DNA of 64,000 nucleotides from Cognatishimia activa (GTDB lineage: Bacteria; Pseudomonadota; Alphaproteobacteria; Rhodobacterales; Rhodobacteraceae), in NCBI RefSeq assembly GCF_017798205.1, contig NZ_CP060010.1, positions 1-64,000 on the forward strand. Direction: 5' to 3'. A model generated the notes under the pieces. The model saw nothing but the letters and a program-made list of their open reading frames with translations. It searched no databases and had not been told where the DNA came from. Within the stretch, counting starts at the first letter, position 1. Each line of letters opens with the position of its first letter. The position numbers and the translations under genes are program-made. Shown here piece by piece: positions 48,327 to 52,562 of this stretch.

Positions 48327-49193
48327 ATGACCACGCCTGATATTTCCTTTGAATTCTTCCCGCCCCGCAATTTGGAGGCCTCTTTTCGGCTGTGGGACAC
48401 GGTTCAGGCACTGGCACCTCTTGCCCCTCGCTTTGTCTCTGTGACTTACGGTGCTGGCGGCACCACCCGTGATCTGACGCGCGAAGCGGTTGAAACCATT
48501 CACAAAAATAGCGGCCTCAAAGTCGCCGCCCATCTGACCTGTGTGGACGCCACCCGAGAAGAGACCATCGGGATCGCGCAGGAGTTCGCAAAAGCAGGTG
48601 TCAGTGACATCGTCGCCCTGCGCGGCGACCCGCCAAAAGGCAGCGCGGGGTTCACGCCGCATCCCGAAGGCTTTGCCAATAGTGTCGAATTGATCAGCGC
48701 TTTGGCCGATACGGGTGATTTCAACATCCGCGTCGGTGCCTACCCCGAGATCCACCCAGAGGCGGCTGATCAGCAAGCCAATATTGACTGGCTCAAGGCC
48801 AAGATCGACGCGGGCGCATCCGAGGCTCTGACACAGTTTTTCTTTGAACCTGAAACTTTCCTGCGGTTCCGAGACGCCTGTGCGAAGGCGGGTATCGATG
48901 CGCCGATCACGCCGGGCATTCTGCCGATTGAGAACTGGAAGGGCGTGCGCAACTTTGCAACGCGCTGTGGCACAACCATCCCAGCGTGGCTGGATGATGC
49001 CTTTGAAAAGGCGATCCGCGACGGGCGCGAGGATCTTTTGGCCACGGCCCTTTGCACTGAAATCTGCTCTGCCCTGATCGACGAAGGCGTCGACAAACTG
49101 CATTTCTACACGCTCAACACACCAGAGCTGACCCGCGATATCTGTCACGCGATCGGCGTCACCCCCGAAGTGAAACTTCAGAACGTAGCGTAA
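48327..49193 (+). CDS. metF: Methylenetetrahydrofolate reductase
   Basis: MetF reduces 5,10-methylene-THF to 5-methyl-THF, the methyl donor for methionine synthesis. The FAD-binding TIM barrel shows DISFEFFPPR at the start, SVTYGAGGTTRD, AHLTCVDATREE, VALRGDPPKG and the QFFFEPETF strand. It has 288 residues. The ATG at 48327 matches the family start; the frame is open further upstream, over the metR start. No SAM or SAH riboswitch is visible upstream, so control is probably by MetR. Confidence 0.95.
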   Translation: MTTPDISFEFFPPRNLEASFRLWDTVQALAPLAPRFVSVTYGAGGTTRDLTREAVETIHKNSGLKVAAHLTCVDATREETIGIAQEFAKAGVSDIVALRGDPPKGSAGFTPHPEGFANSVELISALADTGDFNIRVGAYPEIHPEAADQQANIDWLKAKIDAGASEALTQFFFEPETFLRFRDACAKAGIDAPITPGILPIENWKGVRNFATRCGTTIPAWLDDAFEKAIRDGREDLLATALCTEICSALIDEGVDKLHFYTLNTPELTRDICHAIGVTPEVKLQNVA

Positions 49194-49224
49194 TTCAAAC
49201 TGGGCATTGAATTCGCTGCTGTTT

Positions 49225-49256
49225 GGCCGCCTCCTACTCCCTGTGAGGAGGCGGCC
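49225..49256 (+). promoter_or_regulatory. Hairpin that hides the thioesterase ribosome-binding site
   Basis: GGCCGCCTCC (49225-49234) and GGAGGCGGCC (49247-49256) form a perfect 10-bp GC-rich stem with a 12-base loop. The Shine-Dalgarno GAGGAGG (49245-49251) lies mostly in the 3' arm and the ATG begins right after it. There is no T run, so it is not a terminator of metF. Confidence 0.6.
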
Positions 49257-49757
49257 ATGTCACAACGCAGAATAGCAAATTCCATCGACGAACTCCCAAC
49301 CTTCCAAGACATGCTGTCCATGTCGGGGCTGGAATTCATGCAAGGCGTCCGAGACGGAACCCTTGCGGGGCCGCCGATTGGGCGCACGCTCAATTTCGGA
49401 GTTGCCGAGGTGGAAGAAGGCCGCGTGGTGTTTGAAGGCCGGCCACAATTTGAGGCGACCAACCCCCTGCGCACCGTGCATGGCGGCTGGTATGGCACCG
49501 TGTTGGACAGCTGTATGGCCTGTGCCTTTATGACGACCTTGGACAAGGGCAGCTACTACACCACATTGGAATTCAAGGTGAACATCATCAAACCCATTCC
49601 GCTTGATACGCCAGTACGCGCCATCGGAACGGTTCAACATGCAGGTCGCAGCACGGGTGTTGCCATTGGGGAAATCAGGGGCAAAGAGGACGATCGGCTT
49701 TACGCGACCGGTTCAACCACCTGTATTGTTATGAAAGCCGAACCGCCTCACCAATAG
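49257..49757 (+). CDS. PaaI-family hotdog-fold thioesterase
   Basis: A 166-residue cytoplasmic enzyme that should hydrolyse aryl- or acyl-CoA thioesters. The hotdog domain has NPLRTVHGGWYGTVLDSCMACA, with the HGG motif at 75-77 and an acidic residue D84 placed like the PaaI catalytic Asp. Later strands are YYTTLEFKVNIIKPI and YATGSTTCIV. The ATG directly follows a strong stem-loop that pairs its ribosome-binding site. Its last 45 bases overlap the convergent DUF2235 gene. The substrate is unknown. Confidence 0.87.
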   Translation: MSQRRIANSIDELPTFQDMLSMSGLEFMQGVRDGTLAGPPIGRTLNFGVAEVEEGRVVFEGRPQFEATNPLRTVHGGWYGTVLDSCMACAFMTTLDKGSYYTTLEFKVNIIKPIPLDTPVRAIGTVQHAGRSTGVAIGEIRGKEDDRLYATGSTTCIVMKAEPPHQ

Positions 49758-50804
49758 GCGTGGTACAATCCGCCAGCGCCGCTTCACCTTTTCGGGCACC
49801 GTATCATGAATACGTTCTGACGCGTCCTGTCCTACTTTCCTTCTGTGGCGCGCAAGAAACAATTTCCCCCAGCCCCGCCAAGTGCCAATCGAAGGCGCGG
49901 TTGCATCCATGGGAAACCGCGCTTTCCAACCCTCGGGCATCTCCAGGCCGCAGCGCTCTGCGTTCTCAAGCATCCAAACCAGCGGAATATTGGCCAAAGG
50001 ACGTACGTCGCTCATCCCATCGATTTGCCCACCGACATCTCCGTGGGTCCCTCGGAACCATACCTGCTCTACATTCCCCTGCCAGCCATTCTCAGTGGAC
50101 CACATGACCGGCGCATAGACGGATCTGGTTTCATTGAGCGCCAATGCGTGAAACCCATTGCGCACTGACTGACCGAGCCGGTGGTCGTGAAAGTCGTGCT
50201 GACGGTCTGAAAGTTTCCAGACCAGAGGCAGACGTACGCCCAAAGCCTTCACGGTGTCCCATACACCGATCATCTGAATCTCGACGCTCTCATGGCAGAA
50301 AGCTTTGGCAAATTCACCCACGACCGGAGCATTTGGGTCCGTTTCATAGTGGCGATAGGCCTGACGTATATTGCGTTCGGTCGCATGCTGGGCATGAAGC
50401 AAACCAATCCGGTCTATCACGCCTGCTAAGGAGCGCACTGCAAAAGCCCCGCGCGAATAGCCAAACAGAAAAATCCGGTCTCCGGGTCGATAGCGCGACG
50501 CCAAGACCCCATAAGCACGGCGGATCTGACGGTTGATCCCGCGCCCCATCATAATATCCGGCGCATTCTGCCATTTGGTGAATTGCAATCCAGCCTCATA
50601 AAACAGGCTGATTCCACCCTTTTCAGACAAGAGTTGATAGGTACGACCCGCGTTGGTCTCCATCCCCTCTTCGAGCGAGGACATGGTGCCATCCAGAATA
50701 ATCACATGCGTGCGCACCCCGCGTATGGGGGCTGCGTTTTCCTGAGATCTTAGCCCGCCACGGAGCCAGTCCCGGATTTTGGATGTAAAGCGAAAGACCT
50801 TCAT
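49713..50804 (-). CDS. DUF2235 family alpha/beta hydrolase-like protein
   Basis: DUF2235 proteins have an alpha/beta-hydrolase fold; some members are phospholipase effectors of type VI secretion, others are of unknown role. The nucleophile elbow is FGYSRGAFAVRSL, and the domain opens with HVIILDGTMSS. The later WFRGTHGDVGG gives the conserved HxDVGG stretch with the likely catalytic histidine. No signal peptide, and no T6SS gene, is nearby, so an effector role is not supported. The ATG at 50804 (363 residues) is used; a GTG at 50816 with AGAAGAG close by is possible. It ends inside the thioesterase gene. Confidence 0.8.
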   Translation of the reverse strand: MKVFRFTSKIRDWLRGGLRSQENAAPIRGVRTHVIILDGTMSSLEEGMETNAGRTYQLLSEKGGISLFYEAGLQFTKWQNAPDIMMGRGINRQIRRAYGVLASRYRPGDRIFLFGYSRGAFAVRSLAGVIDRIGLLHAQHATERNIRQAYRHYETDPNAPVVGEFAKAFCHESVEIQMIGVWDTVKALGVRLPLVWKLSDRQHDFHDHRLGQSVRNGFHALALNETRSVYAPVMWSTENGWQGNVEQVWFRGTHGDVGGQIDGMSDVRPLANIPLVWMLENAERCGLEMPEGWKARFPMDATAPSIGTWRGWGKLFLARHRRKVGQDASERIHDTVPEKVKRRWRIVPRLLVRRFGFHNNTGG

Positions 50805-50942
50805 ACCCGCGTGCACTGCTCTTCTTTTGGTCAGATTACACTACCAGAATATGGTTAATTTTTGGCCTGCATAGGGAAATCCCCTCGCGCGGGATCAGCT
50901 TCGCGTGACTGCTTTGAAATCCCCCACCCCTCAGAATCAAAA

Positions 50943-51039
50943 ACGGCGGCACTAGGGAGGAGGAGTGTGCCGCCGTTCTTGGTTACCTAGGCCATAGGGA
51001 GGAGAAGAGGCCTTCGGTATCTCGGTGGGCGCTTGGCCC
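50943..51039 (-). ncRNA. Cuckoo RNA unit 3, ending in the terminator hairpin
   Basis: The mini-stem GGGC-N5-GCCC is at 51027-51039. The weak hairpin (50986-51018) has AGGCC/GGCCT and outer ACC/GGT pairs; its loop has the variant TCTCCTCCC. The strong hairpin (50943-50978) has perfect 11-bp AACGGCGGCAC arms with CCTCCTCCC in the loop. Its 3' arm runs into six T (50944-50939), so it also terminates the transcript. Confidence 0.75.
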
Positions 51040-51048
51040 GGAATTGGT

Positions 51049-51146
51049 CCGGCGGCTCCAGGGAGGAGGAGGGAGCCGCCGGTCTTGTTGCAAGCGCCCC
51101 TAGGGAGGAGGAACGGAGCCCTTGCAATCTCTTGGGCACGAGGCCC
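51049..51146 (-). ncRNA. Cuckoo RNA unit 2
   Basis: The unit starts with a mini-stem GGGC-N5-GCCC (51134-51146). The weak hairpin (51088-51127) has TTGCAAG outer arms, one mismatch and one U-G pair on the minus strand. The strong hairpin (51049-51082) has perfect 11-bp CCGGCGGCTCC arms. Both loops hold CCTCCTCCC. Confidence 0.75.
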
Positions 51147-51155
51147 GGAATTTGG

Positions 51156-51256
51156 GCGGCGACACCAGGGAGGAGGAGGGTGTCGCCGCAATCATCAAAG
51201 AGCTAGGGAGGAGGAGAAGCCCTTCGAATTCAATATCTGTGACCGCGCTTCGCGGT
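51156..51256 (-). ncRNA. Cuckoo RNA unit 1 (promoter-proximal)
   Basis: On the minus strand a small stem ACCGCG-AAG-CGCGGT (51242-51256) is followed by a weak CCTCCTCCC hairpin with AAGGGCT and AGCTCTT arms (51198-51224, one G-U pair). A perfect 11-bp hairpin with GCGGCGACACC arms (51156-51189) comes next, its 12-base loop reading CTCCTCCTCCCT. Confidence 0.75.
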
Positions 51257-51303
51257 GTGAGCGATAACAATCCAGAAGGTTTGTTGTTGCTCTGTTGTGA
51301 TTG

Positions 51304-51331
51304 AATATAGATGAATGCTGCGACTGCACAA
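51304..51331 (-). promoter_or_regulatory. Candidate promoter of the small-RNA locus
   Basis: On the minus strand TTGTGC (51331-51326) and TATATT (51309-51304) are separated by 16 bases. Read as TTG-N18-CTATAT it also fits an RpoH-type heat-shock or oxidative-stress promoter. CcsR RNAs of Rhodobacter are under RpoH control. The start would be near 51297. Confidence 0.4.
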
Positions 51332-51497
51332 TATCTGCCTGCGCAATGCTGCCATGCAGAAAGTGAATAGCTCGTAAATTTTGTGTTTGTGATCAAAGAT
51401 TAAGCAGTAAGACGGCCTGTCGCCGGGATTTTGCTGGCAATTGGCCTTGTTCTCCCTAGGTAAGAAGACTTAGAGCAGGGTGAACAAGGAGATTCAG

Positions 51498-52562
51498 ATG
51501 GCTGTTTCGCAGGACGACGTAAAAACCGCATTGGAACAATTGAGTTTGCCTGATGGCGGCACTCTGGTCAGCCGGGATATGCTGCGGGCGTTGACAATCG
51601 ACGGAGACACCGTCCGGTTCGTGATCGAAGCCCCCTCCCCTGAAGTCGCCAAACATATGGAGCCCCTGCGGCAAGCCGCCGAACGCGTGGTTCAGGCTCT
51701 GCCTGGTGTCAGCAAAGCCTCGGTCGCGCTGACGGCTCCGACAGTGGAAAAACAGCCACCAAGCCTAAAGGTCGGAGGTCACCCGAAGCCACAGCAAGGT
51801 CCGATGACTGTCCCGGGCGTCAAAAGCATCATTGCAATCGGATCTGGCAAAGGCGGCGTCGGAAAATCCACTGTTTCAAGCAATCTGGCGGTGGCCTTGG
51901 CAAAGCAGGGTCGCAAAGTTGGCCTGCTGGATGCAGACATCTATGGCCCCAGCCAACCGCGCATGATGGGCATCAACAAACGCCCCGCGTCGCCAGATGG
52001 AAAAACCATAATTCCTCTGAAATCACATGGGGTTACCCTGATGTCCATCGGCTTCATGCTCGAAGAGGACAAGGCCGTTGTCTGGCGTGGACCAATGCTG
52101 ATGGGCGCGCTGCAGCAGATGCTGGGGCAAGTGGAATGGGGCGAGTTGGATGTACTTTTGGTCGACCTGCCGCCCGGCACGGGCGACGTGCAATTGACGC
52201 TTTGTCAAAAGACGAAAATCAGTGGGGCGATCCTTGTTTCTACGCCTCAGGACGTCGCTCTTTTGGACGCGCGCAAGGCGATTGATATGTTCCAGACGCT
52301 CAAGACACCGGTCTTGGGAATGGTCGAAAACATGTCGACCCACATCTGCAGCAACTGCGGTCACGAGGAACACATCTTTGGGCATGGTGGAGTTGCGGCT
52401 GAGGCGGAAAAACTAGGTGTACCTCTGTTGGGGGCGCTGCCAATTGATCTGGAAACCCGACTTGCCGGAGACAGCGGTACGCCAATTGCCGCCAAAGAAG
52501 GACCGATGGCGGACGCCTATGCGCGCATTGCACAGGGAATGATCAAAGGTGGAATTGCATAG
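51498..52562 (+). CDS. mrp: Mrp/ApbC-type iron-sulfur cluster carrier ATPase
   Basis: A P-loop protein that binds and transfers Fe-S clusters. An N-terminal MIP18/DUF59 domain (about 1-95) precedes the deviant Walker [12 protein letters not shown] (about 114-124). Further motifs are [30 protein letters not shown], and [14 protein letters not shown]. The cluster CxxC is CSNC in [16 protein letters not shown]. It has 354 residues. The ATG at 51498 is chosen because AAGGAG lies 6 bases upstream; an in-frame GTG at 51480 is less likely. It is divergent from the small-RNA locus. Confidence 0.95.

Follow-up and report, generated by a model that had tools for sequence, protein, structure and literature searches.

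A CcsR-type small RNA array beside mrp in Cognatishimia activa retains its promoter at a site from which the DUF1127 gene ccaF1 is gone

Introduction

The cuckoo family of small RNAs (sRNAs) is attributed to Reinkensmeier and Giegerich (2015). CcsR RNAs are related to stress, their induction running through RpoHI/RpoHII, and they are co-transcribed with an upstream DUF1127 gene, ccaF1. NfeR1 of Sinorhizobium meliloti is presumably the RNA modelled in Rfam as ar14 (RF02344). For the CcsR1-4 RNAs of Rhodobacter sphaeroides, passages of the literature describe RNase E processing, Hfq, and effects on C1 metabolism and pyruvate dehydrogenase (PMC10253847, PMC8307010, PMC7866481, PMC7074977). In the portions of the NfeR1 work drawn on here, this RNA is described to pair with ntrB through its anti-Shine-Dalgarno (anti-SD) seeds, and LsrB activates it in S. 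meliloti via a site like the one quoted for VtlR of Brucella, namely, CAATGCAGCCATGCA (PMC10746234; site in an excerpt of PMC12595884). LsrB/VtlR is stated to be unique to Rhizobiales in a passage of a 2025 paper (PMC11975290).

In this study, a 64-kb stretch of DNA from the marine bacterium Cognatishimia activa (Rhodobacteraceae; genome G000), here referred to as the window, was analysed. A first-pass annotation had claimed three tandem cuckoo/CcsR-type RNAs in it, next to mrp. The array itself is not new and represents a CcsR/cuckoo locus, an already known type; what is unusual is that ccaF1, the DUF1127 gene, is gone from the site while the promoter and the array remain.

Results

Architecture and covariation of the array

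Three tandem units of ~106 nt with two hairpins each, a weaker and a strong one, are found at 50938-51227 on the minus strand. The features are as follows, with pairing given as the share of cells paired in the covariation alignment described below:

51498..52562, plus strand: mrp (iron-sulfur carrier P-loop NTPase; PF10609, PF01883), divergent neighbour and synteny anchor
51242..51256, minus strand: small leader hairpin ACCGCG-AAG-CGCGGT, where relatives carry the DUF1127 gene
51195..51227, minus strand: unit 1, hairpin 1; loop motif 51206-51214; 98.7% of cells paired, both-side changes in 7 of 10 pairs
51156..51189, minus strand: unit 1, hairpin 2 (strong); loop motif 51168-51176; 100% paired, both-side changes in 5 of 11 pairs
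51134..51146, minus strand: small stem GGGC/GCCC opening unit 2; GC-rich stems in seven relatives too (by eye, unscored)
51088..51127, minus strand: unit 2, hairpin 3; loop motif 51103-51111; 65.8% of cells paired, alignment uncertain
51049..51082, minus strand: unit 2, hairpin 4 (strong); loop motif 51061-51069; 100% paired, both-side changes in 6 of 11 pairs
51027..51039, minus strand: small stem GGGC/GCCC opening unit 3 (second spacer); five predicted pairs, two with both-side changes (alignment columns 218-231)
50989..51013, minus strand: unit 3, hairpin 5 (weak here, 5 bp); loop TCTCCTCCC at 50997-51005; 20.5% of cells paired under the window's structure
50938..50981, minus strand: unit 3, hairpin 6, a likely Rho-independent terminator; loop motif 50955-50963; 100% paired, both-side changes in 4 of 11 pairs

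The anti-SD loop is exactly CCUCCUCCC in five of the six hairpins and UCUCCUCCC in the other, whose loop TCTCCTCCC carries a single change. All five exact copies of CCTCCTCCC in the 64-kb window lie on the minus strand and within the array (expected 0.49; none of 100 shuffles reached five), and of nine exact copies on both strands of the whole genome, five belong to the array. A hairpin scan allowing up to one mismatch in the loop motif returned the six array hairpins and no other in the window, as first annotated, one changed loop included. With 30 permuted loop motifs, a mean of 1.6-1.8 hairpins (maximum 7) was obtained, nearly all on the array itself; outside the array the mean was 0.23 and the maximum 1. 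Compared with shuffled sequence, the folding z was -8.9 for the minus strand and -3.8 for the plus strand. The three strong stems are perfect over 11 bp with the sequences read at first pass, and the period of 106-107 given there agrees with the loop-to-loop spacing of the strong hairpins (107 and 106; 103 and 106 for the weak ones). The T-run behind the last hairpin, annotated as six, counts five (50939-50943).

The mrp open reading frame opens at 51480, with its ATG at 51498. On the other side, the next gene on the strand of the array (49713-50816, minus) encodes a Tle1-like phospholipase domain (PF09994), and its open reading frame begins ~120 bases past the terminator hairpin.

As had been suggested at first pass, compensatory changes were sought among the arrays of relatives. 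Arrays from eight genus genomes were aligned and scored under the window's own structure; the ninth genome, G006, was omitted for its near-identity with the window. Both-side changes were found in 27 of 60 stem pairs (43 cells), a count that none of 500 shuffles equalled, and slid-structure controls gave 1-8 such pairs. A less decisive measure was the number of additional pair types, for which 7 of 500 shuffles reached the value of the alignment. Helices 1, 2, 4, and 6 pair in 98.7-100% of cells, so that four of the six helices are intact throughout the eight genus arrays, while helix 3 aligns poorly (65.8%) and the low share for helix 5 (20.5%) is explained by the window's departure from the GGCC/GGCC stem of most relatives. 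The array thereby displays the cuckoo-family trait of a fixed anti-SD loop on variable, covarying stems, which is not clear for helices 3 and 5.

Relation to the CcsR locus

The Rfam model of CcsR1 (RF02791), a check proposed in the first-pass annotation, was run on the minus strand. In a search on 901 bases, it matched all three units at 43.9, 39.4, and 34.3 bits (E values 2.7e-9 to 1.9e-6), every score being below the curated cut-off of 65.3. Two matches to ar14 (RF02344) scored 49.7 and 43.9 bits (E 6.4e-8 and 1.2e-6; cut-off 58.8), a model that reached E <= 0.001 in 15 of 289 genomes of a class sample and its cut-off in none. At the gathering threshold, Rfam returned two tRNAs only in the whole window; HDV-ribozyme, ar7, Plastid-psbN, and two plus-strand matches lay far below cut-off and were taken as chance.

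Among 394 family (Rhodobacteraceae) genomes, CcsR1 matched at E <= 1e-4 in 312 and reached its cut-off in 17, and the cut-off is therefore considered narrow. Of 30 CcsR1 loci examined, 29 adjoin mrp and 28 a DUF1127 gene, and both genes stand beside all 17 loci above the cut-off (one of the 17 mrp matches is short, at a contig end). The window array adjoins mrp as well and is assigned to the CcsR/cuckoo locus because all 17 loci above the cut-off share this place. Two stem-loops per RNA with CCUCCUCCC, the CcsR trait, are present in each unit, one of the six loops having a single change. By place and structure, the array is taken as orthologous to the CcsR locus. The claim of three tandem cuckoo/CcsR-type RNAs is thus borne out by the three CcsR1 matches, the covarying stems, and the shared mrp neighbour. 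Its description as a solitary array next to mrp was correct in that it adjoins mrp without a DUF1127 gene, but was incomplete, as the mrp side is the usual place in the family.

In Primorskyibacter flagellatus (L156, 2208-3539), 23 such hairpins stand in a row behind the DUF1127 gene, and in L059 (5094-7183) and L170 (2808-3775) the DUF1127 gene and hairpins are repeated in tandem, with three and two array pieces, respectively.

Loss of ccaF1 from the site and conservation of the array

Between mrp and the window array, neither HMM nor tblastn searches gave a DUF1127 match, in agreement with the first-pass annotation. The gene is present between mrp and array in seven of the nine genus genomes and absent in G000 and its sister genome G006. 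Of 75 named mrp loci examined, 68 have an array by the criterion used; the seven others are L148 (truncated), L162, L165, L197, and the Gammaproteobacteria L202-L204. After tblastn, five of the 68 arrays lack DUF1127, namely, L133 (Cognatishimia DT_16), L184 (Roseovarius), L193 (a Paracoccaceae MAG), L195 (Sinirhodobacter), and L196 (Paenirhodobacter). L133 was counted as the same genome as G006 by Mrp identity, which leaves four of the other 67 named arrays. A first count of seven of 68 had included L156 and L171, in both of which tblastn finds the gene. DUF1127 is also absent beside mrp in three further family genomes (L072, L080, and L101). The names suggest that the DUF1127-less arrays go back to separate losses. 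In L169 (3297-3771), the order is reversed, with the hairpins directly behind the promoter and the DUF1127 gene on the far side of the array.

The arrays of G000 and G006 differ at one of 297 bases (99.7% identity, one N set aside), compared with 177 of 1065 bases in mrp (83.4% identity; 155 of 354 third positions and 51% of fourfold sites), 15 of 66 in the leader that stands in place of the open reading frame (77.3% identity), and 7 of 75 in the promoter; the 3' flank of the array is 95.8% identical. In the leader hairpin of G006, five of six pairs remain, one as G-U. Among 236 pairs of similar hairpin number and length and with fourfold divergence of 0.30-0.60, the array diverges least in G000-G006 (0.013 when flanks of 30 bases are included, at fourfold divergence 0.51), and the next-lowest value is 0.034 (fourfold 0.45). 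This near-identity could stem from selection or from a recent exchange of the stretch. An exchange between the two species, and not selection, is a possible but rather doubtful explanation: other genus pairs show 15-39% array divergence, which makes 1.3% (with 30-base flanks) exceptional, and the 3' flank is nearly identical too, but identity drops to 77% in the leader just upstream of the array, and other pairs reach 3-5% array divergence at fourfold divergence of 0.34-0.46.

Elsewhere in the window, the metF/thioesterase boundary (49100-49299) is 97-100% identical between G000 and G006, with 89% and 93% in the adjacent bins of 100 bases and then 78%. This region may hold another conserved element.

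The G000 genome contains six further matches to DUF1127 that exceed the family cut-off, and ccaF1 might have been relocated rather than lost if one of the tandem DUF1127 genes at G000:1917041-1917605 were the moved gene. Such a relocation seems unlikely. The product of G000:1917041 has 71 aa, the length given for CcaF1, and the genus tree, in which the array-linked DUF1127 genes form a single group (support 99/97), places it next to them with weak support (60/86); yet a wider tree groups it with the unlinked DUF1127 class (80/86), and the neighbourhood of the tandem pair holds unlinked DUF1127 genes in all seven relatives that keep the linked gene, G004 having the pair itself. Still less probable is that the array is a decaying remnant whose sRNAs became defunct with the loss of ccaF1; the DUF1127 gene is indeed gone and hairpin 5 is weakened with a changed loop, but the array is far more alike between G000 and G006 than mrp or the leader, four of six helices are intact, and the promoter block is kept.

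Promoter and LysR-type box

Upstream of the arrays, a block is kept that comprises a box, TTGTGC, GCAGCA, and a -10 like CTATAT, an addition to the first-pass annotation. In the window, the block contains:

51344..51358, minus strand: LysR-type regulator box TGCATGGCAGCATTG, 1 mismatch of 15 to the Brucella VtlR site
51326..51331, minus strand: putative -35 element TTGTGC, conserved upstream of arrays
51305..51310, minus strand: putative -10 element CTATAT, in the conserved block, 15 bases past the -35

A transcript start is expected near 51298, which would place the box at about -46 to -60, compared with -72 to -57 for the NfeR1 site. According to an excerpt of one report, CTATAT is the -10 of the S. 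meliloti sigma70 and RpoH1 consensus, whose -35 shares only TTG (PMC8844928).

With up to three mismatches allowed, the VtlR site occurs four times in the window (shuffle mean 3.6), the other three matches each having three mismatches. In the whole genome, 11 sites differ from the VtlR site at no more than two positions, three of these at a single one, so that the box taken by itself is not unique and the argument is carried by its position and conservation. In 61 of 76 array promoters (nine genus and 67 named), a site within three mismatches is found, whereas 200 permuted motifs gave at most 6 (mean 0.52). The same holds for 17 of 17 loci above the CcsR1 cut-off when the whole locus is searched on both strands without a control. 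Four DUF1127-less arrays, L133 (represented by L051), L184, L193, and L196, keep the box with 1-2 mismatches; in L195, the longer promoter block was searched for and not found.

That the box serves mrp and not the array is hardly credible: it does stand between two divergent genes, but the -35/-10 block reads toward the array, and of 15 arrays without an mrp match in the fetched region, ten have a site within three mismatches (control 0/15), seven of them with full flanks, box, and core promoter (L056, L066, L077, L083, L087, L092, and L099), L088 with box and core promoter at a contig end, and L058 and L102 with the box alone.

In S. meliloti, lsrB presumably adjoins trxB, and a LysR gene after trxB in class genomes is a candidate LsrB. 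Among class genomes outside the family (L399-L413), 12 of 15 have such a gene directly after trxB, compared with none of five family genomes (L394-L398), and no LysR gene was found beside trxB in G000. Searches of one literature library found no paper joining CcsR, LysR, and Rhodobacter, nor anything joining Roseobacter, DUF1127, and sRNA; papers on VtlR with Rhodobacter exist, none of them on CcsR by title.

Candidate targets

The pattern GGAGGAG-N3-10-ATG occurs 40 times in the window genome (control 7) and 39 times in G002 (control 10). The target list holds 32 distinct frames of >=50 aa. The ten that were annotated include three TRAP-type binding proteins, one of which is below its cut-off, as well as aceE (present as a truncated piece), pdhA, acetate-CoA ligase, and S-(hydroxymethyl)glutathione dehydrogenase. 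For three of the 32, G002 has a clear homologue that also carries the motif, namely, aceE, a TRAP-type protein (56% identity), and the L265 protein, which gave no NCBIfam match; a fourth homologue at 25% identity was left uncounted. These candidates would fit what is reported of CcsR, namely, an effect on C1 metabolism and pyruvate dehydrogenase (passages in PMC7074977 and PMC8307010). The candidates are defined by a 7-mer, and a strong Shine-Dalgarno by itself is weak evidence. The exact complement GGGAGGAGG occurs at four other genome sites, none of them a convincing ribosome-binding site; one has an ATG 10 bases on, which opens a 132-aa frame that was judged spurious. Before aceE, a VtlR-like box with 2 mismatches begins 73 bases ahead of the Shine-Dalgarno (G000:160661-160675; L356, L249), and the same place in G002 has 5 mismatches to the VtlR site.

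Discussion

The locus is very probably the CcsR (cuckoo, ar14-like) locus of a Cognatishimia/Shimia-clade bacterium, giving a single processed transcript with Shine-Dalgarno-blocking loops, with ccaF1 lost from the site. From array and promoter we infer one minus-strand transcript of ~360 nt, which would start near 51298 and end at the last hairpin, with a promoter governed through a LysR-type activator box. RNase E would probably cut this precursor into three RNAs of ~106 nt with two anti-SD loops each, and the loops may block the translation of metabolic and transport mRNAs by pairing with their G-rich Shine-Dalgarno (GGAGGAG). The ccaF1 gene, normally the leader of the operon, would have been lost from the site in the window lineage, and maturation must consequently proceed without ccaF1 or use another DUF1127 protein in trans. 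By analogy, the function of these RNAs may be that of the published CcsR1-4.

Two parts are worth following: I) the loss of ccaF1 with the array kept, and II) the common LysR-type box. Array-retaining genomes without ccaF1 are natural knockouts and could show whether the RNAs need ccaF1, and from the common box a regulator of the LysR type is predicted for CcsR operons. In a wider reading, to which we give about even chances, the box common to Brucella and Rhodobacteraceae controls a DUF1127-anti-SD sRNA operon across orders and would be read in Rhodobacteraceae by an unrecognised regulator; in several lineages, the protein gene would have dropped out, leaving a pure sRNA operon that can now do without a processing protein of its own.

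Four described systems compare with the window locus as follows. In the VtlR/LsrB regulon of Brucella, Agrobacterium, and Sinorhizobium, the box is nearly identical, and sRNAs and, in Brucella, DUF1127 proteins are described as being under its control (passages in PMC12595884 and PMC7486931); the regulator LsrB is described as unique to Rhizobiales (excerpt of PMC11975290). NfeR1 of S. meliloti likewise has identical anti-SD motifs, three in one RNA, and a promoter site for the LysR-type LsrB (portions of PMC10746234 and PMC8844928), but it is a single RNA of 115 nt, whereas the window has three units in a row that score below the ar14 cut-off. With the cuckoo RNA family, the window shares variable stems around a fixed anti-SD loop, a criterion taken from part of a 2011 paper on Rhizobiales sRNAs (PMC3927594). 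Compared with the CcsR1-4/CIN1 locus of R. sphaeroides (RF02791), there are three units instead of four, no DUF1127 gene where that operon has one, and a score below the Rfam cut-off. Adjacency to mrp is common to the window and the family loci above that cut-off, among which R. sphaeroides was not identified. A 3'-end terminator, reported for CcsR1-4/CIN1 in the published passages, is likely at the 3' end of the window array too, and both arrays consist of tandem units with two CCUCCUCCC hairpins each.
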